Shown here: one piece after another, positions 8,418-28,600 of the stretch
Numbering within the stretch: the first letter of the stretch is position 1
How the letters are laid out: the number at the start of each line of letters is the position of its first letter
Source: Sphagnum magellanicum
Lineage: Eukaryota > Streptophyta > Sphagnopsida > Sphagnales > Sphagnaceae
Direction of reading: 5' to 3'
Assembly: GCA_021904315.1 (NCBI GenBank)
Contig: CM038917.1
Span: 2,046,001-2,110,000, forward strand
DNA: 64,000 nucleotides
Notes under the pieces: generated by a model
Database searches by the model: none
Told to the model about the DNA's origin: nothing
The model's input: the letters and a program-made list of their open reading frames with translations, nothing else
Position numbers and translations under genes: made by a program

Positions 8418-8537
8418 GCAACATTTGGTTGTAGCTGGAGTGTACAATTACGCGCGGCGCGGGATCTCAAATAATATTTCACGTTGAAAGAAAGATTTGG
8501 GTCTGCACAGCAAAGACGCAAAAATAAAAATAAAATC

Positions 8538-11500
8538 ATGGACCCAAAGGAGAATTTGCCGGAGCAAGAAGATGATCTGGAGATAGAGCGGCCAGTGAAT
8601 CCTGTCCGGGATTCGGGAGTTGTAGATGAAGAAGCTGCTGCTGGAGATGAGAAGAATGAGGAGGAGACAACAACAACAAAGGGGGAGGCATTGGAGATAG
8701 ACGGAGGAGGAGGAGGAGCTGCTGCTGCTGGGTTGAATCAGGATTCAAAGCTGCAGGAGGTGGCGGAGGGGGGGAAGAAGAAGAAGAAGAAGAAGAAGAA
8801 AGAAGGAGAAGAAGACGAGGGTGGTGCTGGTGGGTCAGTGTCCATTTTCAAGCTTTTCGCATATGCGGATAGCTTCGACTATTTGCTCCTCGTGGTGGGG
8901 ACAGTGGGCGCTGTGGTACATGGTGCGGCTTTGCCTGTGTTCTTCGTCATCTTCGCCAAGCTGCTCAATGGCTTCGGCTCCAATATCAATACTCCAGACA
9001 AGACCACTGCCGTTGTGGGCAAGGTAGGTAACCCCCCATCATCATCATCATCATCATCATCATCAGAACAGAAGAAGAAGAAGAGGAAGAAGGGGAAGAA
9101 GATGCTGCTGCTGGTTTTTTGTTGTGGAATCTGTTTTACTGTTGCCATCCATTTTGTTTTTGATCATTTGCATCTTTCTCTTTTGGACACATGGCCAAGA
9201 GTGATGTTCATGTTATTGGGGTTCTCTGGCATTTGTTTGATCTCTGTCTCATTTGTAATGTTGAAGATGATGATGATGATGATATTGGGATTCTTCAATT
9301 TTGCAAATACAGAAGAAGTCAGATTCACATCTTGTCACTTGTTTTTTTAATCACAAATTAACTGCATTTTGTGGTGATGGTGGTGGTGGTTGTTGTTGTT
9401 TTTGATTTATTTTTTGGGTGCATTTGTTTGATCCGCATCTCTCTGCTCTGCAATGTCAACAATGATGATACCTGATGCTGCATTTTTTTGCAAATGAGGA
9501 ATTAGTTGGAATCACGACTTCTCACTTGTGTTTGATCCCAGTTTTTAGCTTAAGCAATCTGAAGGTTAAATTCCATAAGTACCCATAGATTCTCCAATTG
9601 GGTTTTTGTATTAAATTGCAGTAGTGAAGAACTAGTTGCAAAATAAAAAATAAAAAATCATGATTTCTCAATGTGTTCTGAAATTACTAGGCTCTGACAT
9701 ATCTCCAACAGTTTGCAACCCACTGCTACTACTACTTTAGAATACACAAGAATTTGGACATTGAAGCAGCTCCTAATTAATGCGAGAGTTGGGGTGGATG
9801 GTGGGTTTGCAGTATGCACTTTATCTTCTATACCTGGGAATTGTCACTTGGATTTCATCATGGGCAGGTACAAGAAAAACTTACCATCTCTCTGCTTCAT
9901 TTTGTTCTTGAAACTTTTGTTTAGAATATATATATATATGGTCCTATTCTTTTATCATCTTCTCTTTCATTTTGTTGTCAAAACTTTTGTCTAGAAAATT
10001 AGATATTGGTTACTGTGTTCTCTTTCACTTTTTAATCAAAAAATTTGTGTAGAAATTCACAGCTGGGTATTATGATATAGTAGTAGTTGTAGTTGTAGTA
10101 GTAGTACTACTAGTAATAGTAGTAATAGTGTTATACCCTAGTTTTAGAGGTTTTAGAGTTCTTACTAGTCTCTACCAAGAAAGGTCAATCAATGGTGAAG
10201 GAAAAAGATCCAGTTCTTATATTGTAATCAACTTAGAGAGCTAAACCTAATTGCAATGATCCTCAAGGTCATCAAATCTTCAACCCCTTCAATTAGAGGT
10301 GTGTTGTTTTTTTTTTTTTGGTGGGTGAGGGGGGGGGGGGTGGGGGGCGATTTAACTGACAAATGTTGGTGACTCTCAATGTGTATACACAGAGGTGGCA
10401 GCTTGGATGCAAACAGGTGAGAGACAAGCAGCACGAATTCGGGCAAAATATTTGGAAGCATTGTTAAGCCAAGATGTTGGCTTCTTTGACACTGATGCAA
10501 GAACTGGTGAAATTGTGAACAGCATATCAAGTGAAACTCTACTCATACAAGATGCTATCAGTGAAAAGGTGTTTAATTCGAACCCCTCTTCTGCTTCCCC
10601 CTTGCACCTTGCATTGAGTCACATTGCTATCTAGAAAGTGGGCAGTTGGAGTTATGTAATTTTAGCCAAATGGGTGTTATTGATTGTGGTCAGTGATGGA
10701 AAATCAGCTGGTGAAAATTCTGCAAAAAACTCAGAGTCAAACAAGATTTCACAAGAGTCAAATGTTTTGCTACAGCCTTCTTCATCACCCTTGCACTCCC
10801 TGTCATAGTGCTCAGATGTATTGATGTTCTTTTGTTATTGCTTGTTTTTGTTTAACTGGACTGGGCAAAGCTCAGATGGGAAACTACATCCATTATATGT
10901 CGACGTTTGTGGCCGGATTCATAGTTGGATTCTCAATGTTGTGGAAGTTGGCCCTTGTGACTCTAGCAGTAGTTCCAGCAATAGCACTCGCAGGTGGATT
11001 TTATGCCTATGCTCTAACTGGCCTAACCTCCAAAAGCCAACAAGCATATGGAAAAGCAAGCGTTGTTGCTGAACAGGTAAAGAATCAAAATACGACCAAA
11101 ATTACTGTATCTCACTAAATTACTTGTGATTAGGTATACAGATTAGCACTTTGTGAGCAACAGTACTGCAAAAGATAACCCCAAAATGAGATTGACTCAA
11201 ATTAGTGATATGTTAATTATGAGAAATTGGGTGAAATTAGTGTTATGTTAATTATGAGAAAATGGGTGAGATTAGCAACGTGTTAAATAATTTACGACGA
11301 GTTTGATGAAATTAGGGATCTGTAAAATTGTGTGAGTGAGACTGACTTGTGGGTGGGTGGGGGTGATTTATATTTTGGTTTCTGTTTTTTCAGGCAATTG
11401 CACAAATAAGGACTGTGTACTCATTTGTTGGGGAGACAACAGCAGTGCATCAGTTTTCAAGGGCCTTACAATCGACTTTGAAGCTGGGTTACCAAGGGGG

Positions 11501-14500
11501 TCTTGCCAAAGGTCTGGGGATGGGCATCACATACAGTGTTCTTTTCTGTTGCTGGGCTTTGCTTCTATGGTATGGAGGAAAGCTCGTCCGTGAGGGTGAA
11601 GCCAATGGTGGCAAAGCGTTATCCAGCATATTCGCAGTTATAGTTGGAGGAATGTGCGTAATTAATTTTTTCCATTTGTTCCCATCTGGGTGGTTGTTCA
11701 TCAAGAAATCCAAATTTAAAATATTACTTGTTGTGACAAAAAAAAGTGCACTACTTATGGTCCAAATAATCTACAACAAGTAGTAGATTATCGGCTTTAA
11801 ATGATTTGTGTTTGCATTTGTGGTGGGGGCTGGGAATGGGGCATCTACAGTTCATTGGGTCAGTCAACACCCAATTTGGCAGCTTTTGCAAAAGCAAAAG
11901 CTGCAGCTTACAATGTATTCAAGATGATGGAACTCAAGCCGGTTATCAATGCCAACATTGGCACACAAGAGGTGCCTACATCAATCCAAGGAAATATCGA
12001 GTTTAGTCATGTTGAGTTCAGCTACCCATCACGACCAGATGTACTCATTTTCAAGGACTTCTCATTGACTATCCCAGCAGGCAAGACGGTGGCCATTGTA
12101 GGTGGGAGTGGTTCTGGAAAAAGCACAGTGGTGTCGTTGATTGAACGCTTTTATGACCCAAATGCAGGTGTGCTGATTATCTTTGTTGTGCTGTAAAATT
12201 TGAGGCTTGCATTGACTTTAGTTTTAGTGACCAAAAAAAAGTTTGCTATATTATTTGTGAATTTTTTTTTCCCACACCCAATTTGCTATCTAAGCTCCTG
12301 AATTCTGCCACAAGAAAATAAAATAAAATCTCATGAATAAAACTGACTCTTTTAAGGGCCAAGCATTTTCTACTGATGTATACCAATACAAAACTCTCAT
12401 TGATAGTCTAGAGGCAATTGTAATGAAAACTTCGTTGTAATGAAGACTGTCTTTAGAACTAGAATTCAAGACATGACGTATATGTACATGGGTTTTTTTG
12501 CAGGAACTGTGCTATTGGATGGACGCAACATTCGAACAATTCCGATAGATTGGCTAAGGGATCAAATTGGATTAGTCAACCAGGAGCCAACACTATTTGC
12601 AACAAGCATCAAGGAAAATATTTTGTATGGCAAGAAGGATGCATCAGATGCAGAAATTGAAGAAGCTACCAAATCGTCAAATGCCCATTCATTTATTGTC
12701 AAATTGCCTGAGGGCTATAACACGCAGGTTCTGAGGACTTGCCCTCCCAACTGCAATTTGTGAGTTTTCAAGGATTGTAGTTCATCGAGCTTGCTGATTT
12801 GTGTGTGTGTGTGTTTTCCTTTGGTTTTCTTCAGGTGGTGATTTTTTTGTTGTGTTTGGGGCAGGTGGGTGAGCGTGGAGTGCAAATGTCAGGTGGTCAG
12901 AAACAGCGAATAGCAATAGCAAGAGCAATGCTGAAGAATCCAGCAATACTTCTACTTGATGAGGCCACAAGTGCACTTGATGCCGGCTCCGAAAAAATAG
13001 TGCAAGAAGCACTAGATCGTGTGATGGTGGGTCGCACCACAGTCGTGGTTGCACACCGTCTCTCAACCATCCGTGATGCTGATTTTATTGCTGTTGTTCA
13101 GCAGGGTGAAATTGTTGAGATTGGAGATCACAATACACTATTGGCAAAGAATGGTGCATATTCCGCCCTTGTAAGGCTACAAGAGATGGCCATGTCTAAA
13201 GATCAATCAGTTACAGCACCAACAGTCACACGAGTTTCTTCTGGCTCCAGGTGTGCTATGCAGTTTTTCTACAATTTTTCTCTTGTGAATTTGATGGATT
13301 GGAGGTTTTTGTAGTACTCTCACTGATGACAAAATGATTGTGTATGTATGTACATACAGGGCTTCAATGTCAAATTCGATCACAGTGTCCCACTCTGGCA
13401 GGAGATTCAGTAGGCAATACAGTGCAACAAGGTCCGAAAATGAGTCCTCAATTCAGGAACTGAAAGAGGAGCTTGAACCTGTGCCAGCAGCAACCATGTG
13501 GCGTTTACTGAAGATCAATCGACCAGAATGGGGATACGGTGTGTTGGGTTCCCTTGGATCCATTGTTTCAGGCTGTATGAACCCTGCATTTGCACTTGTT
13601 ATCAGCAATGTTCTGTATGCTTATTATGATTCCAACCTGCGAAAGATGGAACATGATATCAGGACGTATGCGCTTATCTTTGTTGGCCTTGGAGTTATTG
13701 CCATCTTTGGCTACTTCACTCAGCATTTCTTCTTTGGTATTATGGGAGAAAATCTGGTGAAACGCATCCGCGAATTGATGTTTGCAAGTATGCTTTCAAC
13801 ATCCCTTTTTTTCCCCCTATCTTTCCATATCTATTATGTTCAACGTGGTTTGTTTGTCTTTTTTTACCTCAGTTTTGGGTAAATGTGTTTTGTGGAGTTT
13901 TGTCTCTGCAATTAATTCCATGTTGATAATTTACACGACTTGGGTAAATGGGCTATGTTCTGGATGAGATGTTTTTCATTCTTTTTGTGCTTTCTCTTTT
14001 GCAGATATTCTGAGAAATGAGGTTGCTTGGTTTGACATTGACGAGAACAACAGTGGCCAAATCTCTTCCCGACTGTCGGCAGATGCCACAACTGTGAAAG
14101 GTGCTATTGGGGAGCGCATTTCACTAATCATCCAGAATACCACATTGATGATTGCTACCTTAGTAATCGCTCTTAAGCTACAGTGGCGTATGGCATTGGT
14201 GCTTCTTGCAACTTTCCCACTCCTAGTTTTTGCTGCTATTGTGGAGGTAAATTGAATAAAATTGGCAATTGATTTCATGTTCCACATTGTCTACACTACT
14301 CTTAGTTTGGGTTAATCCAGTGAATGATAACATGAGCATTGTGAGTGCATCCCATGCTTTATTCAATCTATCCACTCTTTCTCGTGCTTAATCCTAGACT
14401 TGGGAAAAATTGTTGCTTACCAAAATTGCCCTAAACCCTAAACCCCATAGTACCAAAGTGAGTTTTTTGAATGCAACAAATCTGTTTCTTAAATTGTTCT

Positions 14501-16415
14501 ATTGAGGATGCATACATTGAAAGATGAGTTATCATTAAAATTGATGATGGCAATAATAAGAGCTAAAACAACAGAGAGGGGTTGTGTGGTCACTGTGTGC
14601 AGCAAATGTTTTTGAAAGGGTTTGCAGGAGACATATCCAAGGCACAGGCACGAGCCAGCATGGTAGCTGGGGAAGCAGTGAGCAACATCCGTACTGTTGC
14701 CGCATTTAATGCAGAGAAGAAAGTTCTTGCATTGTTTGAACATGAACTTGAAGGCCCTATGAAAGCTGGATTTCTCCGAGGCCAGGTTGAAAATCCTCCT
14801 GTTATTACTTTTGTTTTGGGGGTTTAACATTCCTTTGGGTGGCTATTTATATATTTTTCTTCGAAGTATTCCCATTTCATTGATTCAATTGCTCTGCTAT
14901 GCACCTGCTATGGCACTTAGATCTGGGTTCTTCAATGTGGGTTTTCTACATGGTGTTTTCTCAATGTGGGTTTGTACAGAGTGTTTTTCCAATGTTGGTT
15001 TTTCTACAAGCTGTTTTTTTCAGTGTGGGTTTTTCTGCAGGGTGTGTTTTTTTGTCATCTGGGTTTTTCTACAAGATGTGTGTTTTGCAATGTGGGTTTT
15101 TCTATATGGTGTGTTTATTTTGCAATGTGGATTTTTCTACAGGGTGATGTTTACAATGTAGATTTTTGGGTTAACTGGGTTGAATGTGAGCAGGTTGCAG
15201 GTTTTACCTATGGAATCTCGCAACTATGTTTGTTTGGATCCTATGCTCTGGGTTTATGGTATGGCTCCTTGTTGGTTAAACAAGGTCATGCTACGTTTGG
15301 AAACGTGGTGAGAGTGTTCTTTGTTGTGATTGTTGCGGCTTTTGCTGTGGCTGAAACACTTGCTCTTGCTCCTGATCTCGTTAAAGGAGGGCAAGCAGTG
15401 CAGTCCGTGTTTAGGGTACTTGACCGACGTACAGCGATTGATGCAGATGATCCTGAGAAGGAAAAAGTTGAGTCGATTAAAGGCAATATCGAACTCAAGA
15501 ATGTTGTATTTGCATACCCAACACGACCAGAAATTACAATTTTCAAGGATCTGAATTTGAAAGTGCGATCAGGAAAGTCTTTGGCACTTGTGGGCGCAAG
15601 TGGATCAGGAAAAAGCTCAATTATCTCACTTGTAGAAAGATTTTATGATCCTATAAGTGGCCACATCTACATTGATGGAAAAGATATCAAATCAGTAAAT
15701 TTGAAATCCTTGCGTCGCCACATTGCTCTTGTCCAACAAGAGCCTGCATTGTTTGCAACAACAATCTATGAGAATATTGTGTATGGGCGGGAAGGGGCAT
15801 CTGAAGCCGAAGTTTATGAGGCAGCCAAAGCAGCAAATGCACATAACTATATCAGTGCATTACCGGATGGCTACAAAACTCAAGTAGGTGAAAGGGGTGT
15901 GCAACTCTCAGGTGGGCAGAAACAACGCGTTGCAATTGCCAGGGCTGTTTTGAAGAACCCAGCAATTTTGTTGCTGGATGAAGCTACCAGTGCACTCGAT
16001 GCAGAATCCGAAAGTATTGTTCAAGAAGCTTTGGATCGCCTCATGCAGGTATACATATGTATATATGAACACACATTTTTGATTTCTAGGACTCACATAC
16101 TCATATACCTGGCCACTTTGTTTGTATGTTTTTGTTGGTGTGGCATTGTCAGTTTTGATAGTGTTGGGTGCCAATGTAGTAGCACAAATTATATGTAACT
16201 GATCCATTTCTCTCTTACTGGAAAATTTTGTGTATATGGTTTGTTGGCGCAGGGACGAACATCCTTGGTAGTGGCTCACCGTCTTTCAACAATCCGGAAT
16301 GCCAATAGCATTGCTGTGATCCAAGATGGTGTTATAATAGAGGAAGGTTCTCACCAAGATCTAATGAGTAGATCTGATGGAGCCTATTCCCGTCTAGTTG
16401 CCTTGCAAAGCCGTC

Positions 16416-19096: not shown

Positions 19097-20339
19097 ACAC
19101 ACTCTGTGAAAATTTTGCAAAGTGATTCGATAGCAATGAAACTCATTTTTTGCAGCCAAACTCTGGATAGCTCAAAAACTCAACACAAGAGACTTGCAGA
19201 ATCAAAGCCCAAATGATGAACAATCAAGTCACCATCTAGTGTTAGGTGGGTAATTGATTTTTGTTTCATAACCATTTGTTTTGGTTTTTTAAATGAAAGA
19301 AATCAGAATCGAAGAACTCCAAGTTTCAGTTACTTTCAAAACCTCAAAGAAAATCGATCATTTTCATACATCAAATAATCGGTGAAGAATCAATCATGAT
19401 GGTTGTAAAGGAAGTCATTTGATTTCAAACTTTTGAGACCCATGGTTGTATATCCAAATCGTATTATTTGAGACTTGTAGTTATGAAACCTACAAACCAC
19501 ATTGATAACCATGGGGGGGTTTGTTCTTGCTTCTCGTGGCCACCCAAACACTACACCATCTTCTAATGTCAACAATAAATGAATGTGGATCTTTGAATTT
19601 TGAAATGGGCCAAGCTAGAGTGGATGATTATTGAGGACCCATAAAAGACATGTATTGTTTCAACCACCTATGAACCCTCCCAAACCTTAGTCGAAACCTA
19701 CATCAAAAGGTACTAATGCCATTTGTTGTGGTGGATCAAATTCTGAAATTTTATAAGTAAAACCCACAAAGTCCATTAGAGTCTTGAAAAACATGTTGTT
19801 TATGCAAAGAAAATTTCAGAAGCCAAAAGAAGTATATTTGAAAAGGATTTATAAAAATCAAATCAATTTTGACCTTTCAAAAGTACATGACCAAAATGTG
19901 ATTAAAGTTTTTGTTAAAAAAAAATTCACATATGATTTTATTATTTCATTCTTTAACACATATTCAATCAATATAAATAATTTGGATTGAAATCCAATAT
20001 GAATATCTCAATTTTTTGAGATTCTAGTTCAATAATGAGTTCATATTTCTAAACTTCAAAAGTCTATTATTGATCATAAATGCATTATTTGCAAAAATAA
20101 TTACATTGAAAAACTTTCAAAATGAAATTATACATAATATTTTTGCTTGAAATTTTAGTTGAAGAATGATAATGATACAAGCAACTTTAGGAAAGTAACC
20201 CAAATTGGGGAAAGTTGTTGGAGTTGCTAAACATTTTCATAATCAAACATGTGTGCATTTGTAAGCCATTTAGAAATTTCATTAAGGCAAACTTTTCCTT
20301 GGGTGGTAGCCGAACTCTTCATTGACAACACTCAAGTTT
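19097..20339. other. Intergenic; segment shared with 30.08-30.13 kb
   Basis: No gene is seen. The phrase GATAACCATGGGG with TGTTC.T.CTTCT-like sequence, at about 19503-19540, recurs near 30091-30125, so an old dispersed repeat probably lies here. The part from 19700 to 20280 is very AT-rich. Confidence 0.4.
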
Positions 20340-23300
20340 GCCTGCCCTCCTTTATCTAAGGGCACAAGGACCAGAAAGACTTATGCGTGGTATTATGGAA
20401 CATGCACGGGGTGGTGTAAATAAACTAAAAATGGGGTTGCAAATACTAGAGTTGTTTTAAGGTGTTAACCTTGTTTTATTAACTGAAACTTGGCACTTCC
20501 CAGGCTAACATTTGCCACATGTTGAAGGGTTTGACTCACTTGTGGTAGCACGCATTATGCAGCTGGGAAAAACAAAAGCGATAAAACATAGTGGGGGGGT
20601 TGTTGCTTACTTTCGTAGCCACCTTAGCCCAAACTTGTCACAATGGAAGGAAGGAAGCCACGATTCTTATCTATGGCTATGGGTCAACAAGGGTGCTGCC
20701 CTTGACTTGTTGGTTTGCGTGATGTACGTTGCCCCTGTTGGCTCTAAACGTGAGAGCAAATTCCTATTCCGAAACCTGGTAGCAGATATTGCTGAAGTTC
20801 AAACTCTAGGGGGCATAATACTATTAGGAGGGGATTTTAATGCACGTACTGCAACGTTACCATATACCATTGACACTAGCGACCTTTGTGAACTATTATA
20901 GGCGCTTGAGTTCATTAAGATTGAGTAACCAAACGCTGTGGCTAAATAACAGAACCGCAACCCCAATGTTGGTGGTTGGGGCCACGAGCTCTTTGACCTA
21001 TGTTGTGACACTGGGTTGCTCAGCCTTAATGGTTGGACACTTGGCGACGAATCAGGGGAGTTCACTTGCTTGGTAAATGGGGGGCGTAGCACTGTTGATT
21101 ATATTGTTGGCTCATTTGTAGTTTGGCAAGCTATTACACACCTCAAGGTGATAATAGATGACACCCGCTACCACGTGACGGGGGGAGACTCTGACCATAA
21201 GCCGTTGCACCTACAGTTGAACATTGATTACAGCTTTGTTGAACCACAACATACGGTGGTAACAAAAAAATTCTTGCCTAAGTTCAACTATGATAAATCA
21301 AAAGTTGAAGAGTACCAACTTGTCTTAATAGTGAGTCTTGGAAACTTGTGGGTTGTTAACTCGATTAGGCATCTGGGGGCACATGGGTTAGCTGACCTAC
21401 TGTAGTAATGCGTGCATGCTGCAGCAAAGTTTATTTTTGGCAACAAGCCTTCGGGAGGGAGCTGTAGAAAAAGACACTACCATAAACCCTGGTCTAATGT
21501 TGACTGCCATACAACGAAATGTGAGCTAAGGCTCTGGCTGAAAGCTAACCCTAACTCACATGTCGTTAAACATTAGGAAAGTAAATTCAAAAATTTATTA
21601 AAAAGGAAAAGATTTTTTGGGAAATTGCAAGAGCTTAACATATGTGTGCGCTTGCTAAGGTGGATGCACTTTCATTTTGGAAAAAGTACCGGCCAAAGGC
21701 ACCCGTTGTGGATAAAATCAGTGTAGCTACGTTTTTGGAAGGCTTCTACGGGCTAGTTGGTTAGTCTCTGCCACCCATATGGCTCCGAACTAATCACTTA
21801 GCTCTGGTGATCGAACCTCCACCTAGCTACACCTTGAACACATATATCACACTTGCTGAGTTGCTTCAAGCGTTGAAAAAGCTACAAAGGAACAAGGTTG
21901 TCGGTTTGGATGGTATGGAAGCTGAGTTCATTTTGGATTTAAGAAAGTTGCTACACATGTCACTATTGACAACGTTCAATTGCTTTCTGGCGGAAGGTTT
22001 TTTAGAAGCCCTTTCCACTAGGGTGGTCCATGCGTTCTTTAAAGGGGGCAATGCCTCTGAATTTGACAACTACAAAGGGATAACAGTTGGGCCTATGCTA
22101 GCAAAATTGTTTGTTATGATCCTTAGCAAAAGGCTGAGCGAGTGGGCTAAACAACATGGGTTGCGTGCCAAGGGTCAAGCTGGGTTTTGCAAAGATTACC
22201 GCACTACTAACCAACTTTTCATATTACGAATTCTAATAGAATAGAGTAAGGCAAAAAAGAAACCATTTTATTGCTACTTTATGGACTTCAAAAAGACGTT
22301 CAATATTGTGGTGTGTGAAATACTATGGCAAGTGTTGGTTGGCCTCGGGGTGGAGGGACGCTTCTTGCGATGCTTATAGGCGATGTATGCCAAGGATACC
22401 GTATGCATCAACCACCCAAGCGAGGGTGTCACCTCTAGCTTCAGGTGCTAACAAGGTGTGAAGCAAGGTTGTCCTTTCAGCCCCCTATTGTTTGGGCTAT
22501 ATTTAGATGCCTTAGAGGGGTGCTTAGACGGCAGAGAATGCAATGCATCGACCCCAGCAGATGTGCACGTATGGTTGTTGCTTTTTATAGATGACCTCGC
22601 TCTAACGTTGGAGTTAGAGGTGGGACTACAATAATAGTTAGACGCACTCCAACAGTTCTTTGTTGAACATGGATTTATAATGAACGTGAAAAAAACAAAA
22701 GTCATGGTGTTCAATTATGCCGACCCATGCCAAGAGTTTGTGTTTGAAGGTGATGTTATTGAGCGTGTGCAAACTTTCAAATACTTGGGGATCCTGCTCG
22801 AAACCACCCCGAACCTGGATAATGTAGTGGAACATCTAGCAGCTGTAGTAGGCGCTCGTTATTTGCATTAAACCACCACTGTGTAGAGCTACGTATTATG
22901 GATGTTAAGTTACGTTATGACTTTTTCAACATGTTGGTGCGTTCCACATCAAGTTACACCTGTGAGGTTTGGGTGGACTCTAAGAAAATAGAGGCTATTG
23001 AAGTAGTGTACTAAGGGTTCTTCAAGTCTTTATTCGGAGTGTGAAAAAAAACCAGCACGTCCATCGTGCTAACAAAATTTGGCTAATTCCCCTTTGAACA
23101 TTTTGCATGGGGACAAGTGTTACTGTACTATAACCGTGTGAGCACAGTCATTAAAAAACGCATCTTGGGAAAGGCATGGGAAACCCAGCTCGCTATGCTT
23201 GTTCTGGGAAAGAAATGTTGGGTTGGATCCATGAAAAAATGGCTACTCCAGAATCAACCCCAAGAGGTGGTAGGTTTTTTGCTTCTAGCTCAATCACCAT

Positions 23301-24110
23301 TAGAAATGGTGCCTCAGCTTGTAACGAGTCATGCGCTCTAGGTGAAGACTACTCAATTACCACTAGGAACAGTTCCTGGGATAACGTACATACATTCGAC
23401 TTGTCTAGCAAGGGTAAAAGGTTGGGAGGAAAGCCAAGTATTTTGGTGCAATGCACACAACGTATGGGTGGGAGCTTAGATGGCTAAGCTGGCCATGTTA
23501 TAACTAGTGTAACCGACTAGTGGTAGATTTATGACGAGAGGCCCAATTAACCAGGAGGCTTGGGGCCCACCCCCTTTAGGTTTTCCCCACACAATGTTGG
23601 GTGTAAAAAGGGTGAAAGATAATATGCGGTTGACTTTCATTGAAAAGCTCTTTACCAACCATCAGATTGGGATTAGCGTGAAGACAAAATACTTGCGTTT
23701 CAAGGGTATGTCGTATGAAAGCGAAAGCTACTTGTGTGACATCAACTGTGTTTAGCTACGAAAAGCTTTAGTTCATTTTTGGTGTGGCAACACGTAACTT
23801 GAGGCATTGTTAGGTGCGTGGAAGGGTGTGCCATATGTTAAGAGGCTTTGTCGAGGCTGCGACTTAAGGAAGGTAGAGGATGAAAAACACCTATTCCTTG
23901 TTTATCCAAATACACATAAAAGTAGGGAACGTTTTTGTTCGACCTTGCCCCTCACCCACACAAGCACTCTTGTTGAACTCATACAAACTACGAACATGGT
24001 CGCCTTGGCCAAATTTGTGGCATGCTGTTAGTACCAAGAGACAATCTGTCCTCCATGATTTACGTTTTGTCTAATGGATTCTCTGGTCCCAAACGGACAT
24101 AAAATTGTAA
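20340..24110 (+). pseudogene. Degenerate plant LINE (APE endonuclease + reverse transcriptase ORF2)
   Basis: An L1-type non-LTR retrotransposon ORF2 can be followed across frames. Endonuclease: GGDFNAR with Asp at 20833, STVDYIV near 21090, and SDHKPL at 21190. Reverse transcriptase: motif A Asp at 22284 (within MDFKKTF), QGCPFSPLLFGLYLDALEG near 22470, and the catalytic FIDD at 22584-22595. Near the end is a zinc-finger-like CRGC...H...(C to Tyr at 23903) typical of the zf-RVT tail. It is broken by frameshifts near 20415, 21615, 22855, 23370, 23475 and 23577, and by many in-frame stops. Nearly all stops are TAA/TAG where Gln is expected, for example 20458, 20506, 20899, 20926, 20947, 21403, 21406, 21574, 21636, 21762, 22242, 22377, 22449, 22632, 22635, 23012, 23339, 23753, 23795 and 24029. 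TGA at Arg positions occurs at 23042 and 23532. No ORF1 or poly(A) tail was recognised, so the 5' end may be truncated. Confidence 0.88.
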
Positions 24111-25547
24111 ATAATAAACAATAAGCAAGGTGGTACCACTAAAAACCACCTTATCAAAATCATAGGAATGTTGGGTCAAATTAAAAAAATAGAATTTCAT
24201 TTACTTATACATTAGTTTATTTGATTAAATTAAGTGCGCTATGTGTTCCGCACCTATGCACACATTCATGAAAAATCATGAACACCCAAATATGTATAAT
24301 ATGTATTAACATTTAGATTCTTGAACCATTTTTGACGCATTTTTTATTCAATTCCTAATTTTTTTTAAAAATGTGTTTACATTTACAAATTATATATATT
24401 TCCTTGTTTATTTAATACGTTCGCAAGAGAACGATCCAAACTAGTCATTAAAAGAATAAAAGATGAAAATAATTATCCTTTGTGTTTTTAACATCAATGG
24501 CTTTTTGGGGCTTCACGATCTTGATTTCAAAAATTCATAACTAAATCAAAATTGATTCAATCAATTATCTATAAAAGGCATCAAGTAGGTTGGCATTTGA
24601 AGTATTTTCAAAAATTAATATCCAAACAAAAATCTCAAACAATAGATTCCTTTTGTTGTCTTGATCAATATTTTTTTTCATGTGACACCTAAAACTTTTT
24701 CCTTATGCAATCATTTTCTGTATCAAAACACATTTTTTGTAAATTTAGTGAGAGTTTTAAATTACACATGACTTGGTTAACCTTTTGATAAATAATTTGA
24801 AATGAAAAACTTTCTTTATGTAAATCTTATGTTGTTTTGAAATTGGATGGATCACAAAAATTGGGGTGATGTTTCTAATGGTACCACCCAAGGATCAGTT
24901 TGCTAATTACTAAATATTTTTTTCAAAGAAACATTGTTAGTAAAAGAAAAAGCCACTTGGAGGGCAAGGGATGATGTTCCTTTTGCATTTTTTTTTTGTT
25001 TGTTTATGTTCTTCAATCGTAAACATGAGGCCATATGGTTGTAAAAATTTGGGATTAAAATGTGTTATATATTGTGCCTACGTTGAATGTATTTAATTTT
25101 TTTATATTTGATCGTTGAATTAAGATTAATTTTGATTTAAAATGAATGTTGAGGTTTAAAAAGTTATCATGCACATTCTGGTGAAATGTTTTCCTTGAAT
25201 TTAGGATTGTAAAAAGATCGGCACCACGATTCAAGCCTATTGGGCACTAATCTATTAGAGCTTTGCATTGAAATTTTTGTCTTAAGTGGTTCACATGTAG
25301 GCCTATTGTGCTTTCACCTCAACCATGCATCAAAAAATGTGTAGGAAAAGACCACATGTAAACTAGAAATTGATCCAGTTTTGAATTGTGTGCATTTGAA
25401 TATCCACTGCATTTGAGGGTTATTAATGCTCCACCATGTTTTAAAGTAGGCACTGTGCTGCACCCATGTTGGTTCTGAAATGTGTATGTCTTATGGAAAC
25501 ATGGGAATTTATGAGCTAACCAAGATTGAAAATGGTACGGTAGGTGT
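24111..25547. other. AT-rich intergenic DNA
   Basis: Nothing recognisable apart from AT-rich degenerate sequence. The LINE 3' end is not sharply marked and may extend a few tens of bases past 24110. Confidence 0.5.
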
Positions 25548-25576
25548 TGAACATTGCTAAAGTTTAGCAATGTTCA
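25548..25576. repeat. Perfect palindrome, 14+1+14
   Basis: TGAACATTGCTAAA is followed by a single G and then its exact reverse complement. The TGAACATTG word is also the inner part of the terminal repeat of the MITE family at 4589 and 34874, and a fragment of that family starts about 45 bases downstream. Confidence 0.85.
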
Positions 25577-25622
25577 GTTGGGGTACAACTCCTTGGTTTT
25601 CATCTAGAATAATTCCACCCAT

Positions 25623-25678
25623 ACTCAACATTTGACCCTGCAATAATATTTTTCACATCCGAGATTAGCTATAAATAT
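25623..25678 (+). mobile_element. Fragment of the GAGCATCTCC-type MITE family
   Basis: ACTCAACATTTGACCCTGCA followed by ATAATATTTTTCACATCCGA matches, with scattered changes, the terminal and sub-terminal part of the elements at 4589 and (inverted) 34874. The rest of the element is missing or too diverged to follow. Confidence 0.5.
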
Positions 25679-28600
25679 TATATTATCCCAAGCCCCACAC
25701 ATAATTAAACATCTAGTATCTATGAAGGAAAGAAGTTTGTTTGTTTTGTTTTGTACTTATGAGATCCATGGAACCAGGATGCTTCAGATTGTGTTCTTGG
25801 TGTCTTTGGAAAGCTCTCGATGAGGAGAGAGGTACATGGGCTTGGTTACATGATGTTTGGACTTGCGGTGCAAAAGTTCTTGAATATTGAATGATTTCTT
25901 CACTGAAAATTAAATTAAATTAAATTGTAGCTGAAAATTTCAGAGGAATTGGAATATGCCTTTGGAGTTATTGGAAAGATCTTGAAGATGAGCAGGATTT
26001 AATGGAATTTATTTGGTAAGATTTGGATTCAGAATGTGGGAGATATTGATCATCCAAAACATCCAAAACATGCTATGCAATGTGCTGGTGGATCAGATGC
26101 TCTTTTGCAACAGATCAACACTGCAGATGAATTCCTGGCCAATTTCTTGGAGGCCAGGAATTGAAAGCCTGGGGATCAGTAGAGAACTTGTGTGTGATAT
26201 GGGCGATTGATGAACGACCTGTTTGTTTGTTGTTATGATGAACTTACATGCATAATTTTCTGTGATAGATCATTGAAGATGCAAAAGCTGCCAAACTTTA
26301 TTGCAACAGATGATGATCAACATAAGGTACAGACGAGAAGTTCGTCTAGGGATCGAACTTTTGGGGGGACCCATCAAAGAGTTGGAATGGGAAAAGAAGA
26401 TGAAGAAGAAGAAGAAGAAGCAGAAGGAGAAGAAGAGTTCAGCTTGCAAATTCTGTATCCTTTGACAACTCTCAGGAAAACCCATCACCCGTTTGTTTGT
26501 CGCTTTCTGGTGCGGGACCTACGGAGTCTCTCATCACACGGTCACCTTGTAAATAGGCAAGGATCAGTGACCAGTCTCGCTTGATCAGTGGGAATTTACA
26601 GTAGTTGCCGCCGCCTAGTGTATTCATCATTACTCGCAGTTAAGAACCGTGGGGTCCCACGCCTGCAGTTAGATGGTTCGTTCCACCATCGCTGCAGACA
26701 GGCAGGCGGCAGCAGCAGCAGCAGCAGGGAGTCGTGAGTCCTCCTCCCTGGGGAGGAGGAAGAATGAAAGAAAGACAAAAAAAAAATGGAGAAGAAGCGG
26801 CCTGATCTGCACGATTCCAACTCCTTGTTGTTCCTTCCTTTTCGGCACTCATCATGCACGTGTGCATCTAAGATAGATCTCTCACAATACTATCAGTGAA
26901 AAACTTGGTGGCTGGGCCATCCATCTCCTGGCAGCTACCTACCTCGCCATCGGTCGTGGGCCCACTTGGTGGGTGAAATCAATTCTCATGGAAATCCCCC
27001 CCCCCCCCCCCCCCCGAAAAAAAAAACAAGAAAGAGGAAGCTGCTTGGCCGGTGATTTGGTACATAACAAAGTTCCCGGATTCAAAGTTCAAACCTGTGG
27101 GTGAGCATGTGAAAACCTTGTGGTGTCCTTTACCGCTGGGGATGACATGATCTGGGGGTATTGCCAATATATAGCTTGTCAGTTGTCAGCCCAATCTCAT
27201 GCTGTGTTCCCAAAGAGAACAAAAACCAGAATGGAGTGAAATCAATTCCCATGGATGACTATATTTAGCTATGATCATCTTCTTCCTCCCCCAATTTTGC
27301 ATTTGGAAGAAGATCAAAGTCCTCCATGATTGATCTCACCTTGTAAAAACCTCCGCCCAGATTTTACCCTAGACTTGCTAACTTCTAAGCTGGTCATGCT
27401 AGACAGTAGACACAATGATGGAAACCTGATGAGTGTCAGTGGACAAATTACCAGCAACTATTTTTGGTCATAAAAGTCATACATGTCTTTATACCTTAGA
27501 GCTTGGAAGTGGGCCGGTCAAAGCTGAGGTTGAAGGAAAAAATGAATACCCGGACTCTCTCGTTCTTTGCTGCTGATCAGCAGACTAGTGAGACACTAAA
27601 TGGGGCTTTCTTTTCATGTTCGCTGGGCGCTATTGAAGAATCCAGACACGTATCCCTTATGATTCGCACTAATTCGCTTTCTTGGGTGCAGCGATGGATG
27701 TGTAGAATAAATGAATCAATCATTTCTCACCAATCTTTTATTATTACCTTTCAGCAAAAAGATGCAATGAAACTTCATGAGCACCAGCTGAGCCTATGAT
27801 TTGCAATCCAGACTAGTTGATCAACAACAACAACAATAATATATGCATCTGGGGGAAAGGAAAAGAAAAACCTCCACAGACTTACTTACACCTGTTTGTA
27901 GTTTGAATTATGCGTACCTAATAGCCGATCTCCAGTTGCAGTCAAAACCAAAAAAATTGGTCTTCACTTGATGTAATTCAGGAATTGTTGTAACTCTTAA
28001 GACTGTGTTTTTTTGGGGGGTTTTCTGTTGCTTCTAGAATTATAACAGCTTGCTAGCTGCTGCAGATAAAGTTAATTAAGCGCCGTGGCAGAAGATTGAT
28101 ATACCAGGCCCACATACTCTGGACTCTGGATCAGCTGCCATGGACGACAAGTTTTATATTTTTAGCACAACATTATTATAGCCTAGTATCTGACACGAGA
28201 ACTCCAGAAGAAGAATATCACCAGAAAATGTGGACGAAGCTTTAGGCGATGGACTCGGGGATCTCGAGTTTAATTAGCTCAAAATTGATTACAACTCCAA
28301 AAGCAAGAACAGCGAAAAACAAGGCCTGGGCACTCGATCGATGGAGCTTGTGCACACCCCATTGTGAGGCAAGGTGGATCGTGCGTGCGTGGTAGTCTAG
28401 TCTTGTGTAAGAGTGGAGCATGCAAAGAGACAGTAGCTGTAAAGAGAGAGTCAAGAGTCAAGAGTCAAGAGCTGCTGCTTCTTAGACACCACCACCTGTG
28501 GGGGGATGAGGGGACTAACAATAGAATCTAAAAGTCACAATAGAATCTGGGATATTCTCTGCAGATACCAGTGATACTATTGTCTCCAACAAATGGGATC

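Follow-up and report, generated by a model that had tools for sequence, protein, structure and literature searches.

The LINE copy at about positions 20306-24120 on the forward strand of the window, which is the whole 64,000-nucleotide stretch of Sphagnum magellanicum DNA analysed here, carries numerous in-frame stop codons, most of which stand where related sequences have glutamine. This study was concerned with the origin of these stops. The original prediction took deamination of methylated CG, CHG and CHH sites as its default and listed as other options C-to-U editing of the LINE RNA before reverse transcription, U-to-C editing that repairs the stops, and descent from a genome that reads TAA and TAG as glutamine. 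A story of recoding or editing is tempting at such a locus; it was put to a direct test, and ordinary decay was found. We hold with high confidence that an old, silenced LINE acquired these stops through ordinary wear, by methylation-context deamination.

The element is a dead, 5'-truncated LINE with an ORF2-like region made up of an endonuclease-like part and a reverse transcriptase. The endonuclease-like region lies at 20443..21114 (Exo_endo_phos PF03372, E = 4.8e-5, with 23.7 bits, which is under the curated cut-off of 24.5) and the reverse transcriptase region at 22068..22793 (RVT_1 PF00078, E = 2.3e-21), both on the forward strand. The best-matching solved structure by sequence for the reverse transcriptase is LINE-1 ORF2p (E = 3.5e-23). 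All of the sister loci compared (29/29) have a common 3' end at 24113-24128, and their 5' starts differ. Because 18 of 28 sister loci align to the longest locus (L012) for a further ~0.6-1.1 kb beyond the 5' limit of the window copy, the window copy is 5'-truncated. Three single bases that are present in more than 80% of the other copies are missing from it, and these losses account for its frameshifts. In the 30 copies first aligned, the longest run between stops in any of the three forward frames measures 133-400 amino acids. A search for relatives in viral contigs gave eight pattern-matched stretches, none of which was confirmed.

Two side observations were also made. A spliced ABC transporter gene is found at 8475-16198 on the forward strand, ~4 kb upstream of the LINE; its last long ORF matches ABC_tran (PF00005, E = 9.5e-35) and the motif glutamines checked in it are CAA or CAG. 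In the genome at large, an RVT_1 search scored at least 150 places (of 3494 candidates), and many of these have a stop-free open frame of 1514-1542 amino acids. So many intact frames suggest an abundant, apparently young retroelement family.

Sister copies of the LINE were obtained by a DNA search of the plant's own genome, a 439-Mb assembly of 31 contigs, in which 40 of 302 LINE candidates were scored. The scored matches were grouped into at least 40 LINE copies, that of the window included, and the main matches are 79-85% identical to the window copy. Twenty-nine sisters were aligned first (30 copies with the window's) and ten were added later (40 copies). Ancestral states are majority calls over the related copies, with CG and CHG sites re-called by rule, which altered 50 of 3731 columns. 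The frame path through the window LINE comprises 1226 codons over three frameshifts, 1216 of which were mapped to the ancestor.

This path holds 24 in-frame decay stops between 20458 and 24031 on the forward strand (12 TAA, 11 TAG and one TGA), alongside 27 CAA, 10 CAG and 27 TGG codons. The TGA at 24056..24058, also on the forward strand, is not a decay stop but the original terminator, which all 30 copies share. At the 24 decay stops the commonest sister codon is CAA or CAG at 20, CGA at three (20947 TAA, 23012 TAA and 23042 TGA) and AAA, for lysine, at one (23084). Two of the glutamine sites, 23477 and 23501, fall in a gap in 20 of 29 sisters, so the ancestral call there comes from nine copies. 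No stop occurs among the 1216 mapped ancestral codons, and TAR is a minority state in the sisters. The observation from which this work started is partly confirmed by these counts. Its estimate of about 24 TAA and TAG codons was close (23), and the 37 or so remaining glutamine codons were found exactly (27 CAA and 10 CAG). Its two or three TGA codons at arginine come down to one TGA, with three stops at ancestral CGA, and its figure of about 20 tryptophan codons was an undercount of the 27 on the path. The placing of TAA and TAG at glutamine in essentially every case holds for 20 of the 23, but two TAA codons were ancestrally arginine CGA and one stop was lysine.

Decay in the family as a whole depends on sequence context and hardly at all on strand. 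Counted over 30 copies on the coding strand, C-to-T compared with G-to-A changes number 1248/5227 versus 1310/5229 at CG (.239 and.251), 1820/6152 versus 1834/6048 at CHG (.296 and.303) and 1320/15132 versus 1728/19213 at CHH (.087 and.090), and A/T sites are changed in 2.9% of cells. Within CHH the rates are.19-.21 for CTC,.17-.19 for CTA,.15-.17 for CTT and.10-.14 for CAA, followed by.03-.06 for CCH (CCA ~.06) and.015-.026 for CAC and CAT. This ranking (CTC > CTA > CTT > CAA >> CCH > CAC/CAT) may mirror the preference of the plant's CHH methyltransferase. Total decay per copy has a narrow range, 13.9-21.9% over 40 copies.

A simple series of events would produce the stops from such decay. 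After insertion, the LINE would have been methylated at CG, CHG and some CHH contexts, and 5-methylcytosine on either strand would have changed to T. Coding-strand decay would turn CAG, which is always a CHG site, into TAG; CAA, a moderately fast CHH site, into TAA; and CGA into TGA. On the opposite strand, the change from CAG to CAA would be silent. In the alignment, the 33 ancestral CAG codons of 30 copies now read CAG in 413 cases, CAA in 288, TAG in 201 and TAA in 34, with a few others, and those of the window copy read CAG in eight, CAA in nine, TAG in nine, TAA in five and other codons in two. Since an opposite-strand change at the same CHG site gives CAA, some of the CAA codons that seem to have survived in the window copy are in fact decayed CAG. 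Stops in the family (30 copies) occupy 235 of 969 ancestral CAG codons, 78 of 699 CAA, 48 of 208 CGA and 54 of 600 TGG. The window copy has 14/33, 4/24, 3/7 and 0/21 respectively, and context rates predict 12.3, 3.8, 2.1 and 2.9 stops. Family stops fall below the prediction from trinucleotide rates, most of all for tryptophan (54 against 89.9, with 235 against 277.2 for CAG and 78 against 85.2 for CAA); thus, the trinucleotide-rate model is incomplete. An extra coding-strand bias in the window copy, ~1.5-fold, would have raised its glutamine stops.

Tryptophan codons were said never to be hit. This is true of the window copy, where 0 of 21 ancestral tryptophan codons are stops compared with 18 of 57 glutamine codons (Fisher p =.002), but not of the family, in which the 54 stops among 600 tryptophan cells (30 copies) consist of 40 TAG, 12 TGA and two TAA. 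Five of the 30 copies, the window's among them, have no tryptophan stop. To become a stop, TGG needs a G-to-A change, that is, decay of an opposite-strand C in CCA (rate.057) or in CAN, where N is set by the preceding base. For the 21 ancestral tryptophan codons this CAN is CAT in seven, CAA in six, CAC in four and CAG in four. Tryptophan would mostly be spared because CCA decays slowly, as do CAT, CAC and CAA, the usual contexts of its other opposite-strand C; the latter is a CHG site only if a C precedes the codon. The absence of tryptophan stops from the window copy is mostly a matter of context plus luck. The coding-strand bias of this copy may have helped, and across 30 copies per-copy strand bias predicts the fraction of glutamine stops (Spearman.55, p =.0015) but gives no prediction of tryptophan stops (Spearman -.15, p =.42). 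For example, one sister (L020) has a bias z of 4.8, yet stops at 5 of its 19 tryptophan codons. Here, CHG-type decay is seen to concentrate stops at glutamine and to leave tryptophan mostly intact.

The pattern of double hits bears on the chemistry of the decay. Over 40 copies, hits on both strands of the same CG number 177 versus 396.6 expected (ratio.45) and of the same CHG 391 versus 697.9 (ratio.56), while for control pairs, taken from sites that decay equally fast and lie 3 to 20 bases apart (ten distances), the ratios are.87-1.10. The deficit persists with plain-majority ancestors (.42 for CG and.54 for CHG) and in well supported columns (.38 and.42). At a symmetrically methylated site, the first hit would destroy the target and so shield the partner cytosine. 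The deficit may therefore be read as the trace of symmetric methylation, and it favours deamination of 5-methylcytosine over editing or a single-strand deaminase. Methylation is thus very probably the cause of the decay, as judged from the sequence pattern.

An old repeat of ~600 bp, unrelated to the LINE, lies next to it at 24300..24903 on the forward strand and served as a second family. Thirty-seven further copies with 79-83% identity were aligned (38 with that of the window); 37 of 38 fetched loci were used and L094 was excluded. The double-hit deficit is also present in this repeat (8 versus 22.0 expected at CG, and 23 versus 44.1 at CHG). CG and CHG again decay fastest, and the strands are less even than in the LINE (CHG 118/237 versus 96/235; CHH 489/3451 versus 364/2900). 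Within CHH, CTH is highest and CAC and CAT lowest, as in the LINE, but CCT (.167) exceeds CAA (.125). As an independent test of per-copy bias, this repeat gave a sum of squared z of 55.1 versus 39.4 in shuffles (p =.055), and the copy adjoining the window LINE has a bias z of only +0.76. However, most of that copy lies inside a stretch, 24394-26050, that is 98% identical to C11:4766269-4767929 on the same contig. This identity points to a recent duplication or insertion, so the repeat may not always have sat here.

The claim of a strand bias holds for the window copy itself, although for the family the refuting outcome named in the original prediction was obtained: both strands decay equally and tryptophan stops do occur in sisters. 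On its coding strand, C-to-T changes number 201 versus 165 expected and G-to-A changes 149 versus 185 expected (z ~4.7), and context does not account for the difference. The other copies are also biased, each in its own way. Oriented by the element, the bias z of the 40 copies extends from -4.38 to +4.89, with either sign. Squared per-copy z values add up to 256.7; in 500 shuffles of strand labels the sum averaged 41.9 and never exceeded 76.2, and in 278 circular shifts it never exceeded 89.9. The sum remains 250.6 on plain-majority ancestors and 228.3 in well supported columns. At rarely hit sites (those with the derived state in no more than 4 of 30 copies) the bias is weaker (61.4, p = 4e-4) and correlates with the full set at r =.79. 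No local patches of bias beyond ~20 bases were seen, the bias being copy-wide, and there was no trend with relatedness (mean z products of -.32, -.53,.72, -.26 and -.31 in five bins of rising identity). A-to-G versus T-to-C changes were not overdispersed among copies (29.9 for 40 copies), and their correlation with the bias in C-to-T is weak (r =.33, p =.04).

The bias extends beyond the element. Skews were taken from true flanking DNA, without 5' element sequence, and the bias follows the TG-CA skew downstream (r =.66, n = 29, p = 1e-4) and on both sides (r =.62, n = 30, p = 3e-4), with r =.36 for upstream alone (n = 25, p =.07). For GC skew the correlation is.47 on both sides (p =.008),.62 upstream and.28 downstream (p =.14); bias and TA skew are uncorrelated (r -.02). 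When the next 3 kb on each side was taken for four copies with strong bias, the sign of the TG-CA skew agreed with that of the copy in five of eight pieces (two of these skews are small,.006 and.034) and was opposite in three. With bias oriented by chromosome strand, copies on the same chromosome agree in sign in 27 of 46 pairs (weighted permutation p =.008), with agreement in 3/5 pairs under 0.7 Mb (p =.03), 5/10 under 3 Mb (p =.055), 9/17 under 5 Mb (p =.02) and 18/29 over 5 Mb (p =.03). This concordance at the scale of chromosomes, no stronger at short range, is suggestive only. Per-copy bias probably reflects a position-dependent strand asymmetry of methylcytosine decay, which may be set by the local direction of replication or transcription, and such an asymmetry would be the reason that the window copy looked one-sided. 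We lean towards the wider view that decay at each insertion persistently favours one strand (up to ~1.65-fold) throughout the insert and into the flank, for CG/CHG and CHH alike, and that old copies record the local direction of replication forks or transcription. If confirmed, insertion-specific bias would mean that the direction of replication or transcription in a plant genome can be read from its dead transposons. The open-access literature searched yielded no account of a strand bias specific to single insertions of plant transposons.

These results can be set against other explanations of the stops. If the LINE RNA had been edited from C to U, or its cDNA deaminated, before integration, the C-to-T excess on the coding strand of the window copy would follow directly. 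However, such an origin predicts a bias to the coding strand, and the 40 copies go both ways, with the first 30 summing to symmetry; the bias also tracks true flanking DNA, as in the downstream TG-CA skew, and the deficit of double hits at CG and CHG would not be expected from a single-strand deaminase. We regard this origin as extremely unlikely. A genome defence that mutated copies in bursts, by a RIP-like process or a deaminase, is scarcely better placed and is also very improbable. Strong C-to-T change with a strand preference in each copy could reflect strand-coordinated bursts, but the preferred sequences (CG, CHG and graded CHH) are like those of plant methylation, the decay of the 40 copies spans a narrow range, local patches are lacking and the bias is common to the flanks.

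It is extremely improbable that the LINE, or a source genome, reads TAA and TAG as glutamine, or that U-to-C editing of RNA repairs the stops. The 20 of 24 stops at glutamine positions are what this explanation has in its favour. Yet the sisters mostly have CAA or CAG there, the mapped ancestor has no stops, two TAA codons were ancestrally arginine and one stop lysine, and the window copy is frameshifted. In the host's ABC transporter gene at 8.5-16 kb, glutamines of the motifs are written CAA and CAG. The interpretation in the original prediction is partly supported overall. Its default, deamination at methylated CG, CHG and CHH sites, fits the context spectrum of the family and the double-hit deficit. 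Editing before reverse transcription fails on the equal strands of the family and the two-way bias of its copies, and neither U-to-C editing nor TAR as glutamine is needed.

Several known systems can be compared with the window LINE and its decay. The window LINE resembles an L1-type ORF2, with its APE endonuclease and reverse transcriptase, in having an endonuclease-like region followed by a reverse transcriptase on one reading path, in the nearness of the latter to LINE-1 ORF2p among solved structures, by sequence, and in belonging to a family with one 3' end and varied 5' ends; it differs in being dead and in an endonuclease score slightly under the Pfam cut-off. A study on the moss Physcomitrella assigns CG, CHG and CHH methylation to MET, CMT and DNMT3b (PMC6453930). 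The decay of plant transposons methylated by MET1/CMT/DNMT3-type enzymes is matched by the LINE, where CG and CHG are fastest and CHH depends on context. For maize and for the heterochromatin of Arabidopsis, CAA and CTA are reported to be the most methylated CHH sites (PMC5221884); LINE decay differs from this in that CTC, CTA and CTT exceed CAA, which far exceeds CAC and CAT, so that CAA and CTA are not simply at the top. Lastly, a review describes a C-to-T excess on one strand that is set by genome position and linked to replication or transcription (PMC10030826). The C-to-T excess of the LINE copies likewise goes by location, although here it is read from plant transposon copies, in contexts that are presumably methylated.
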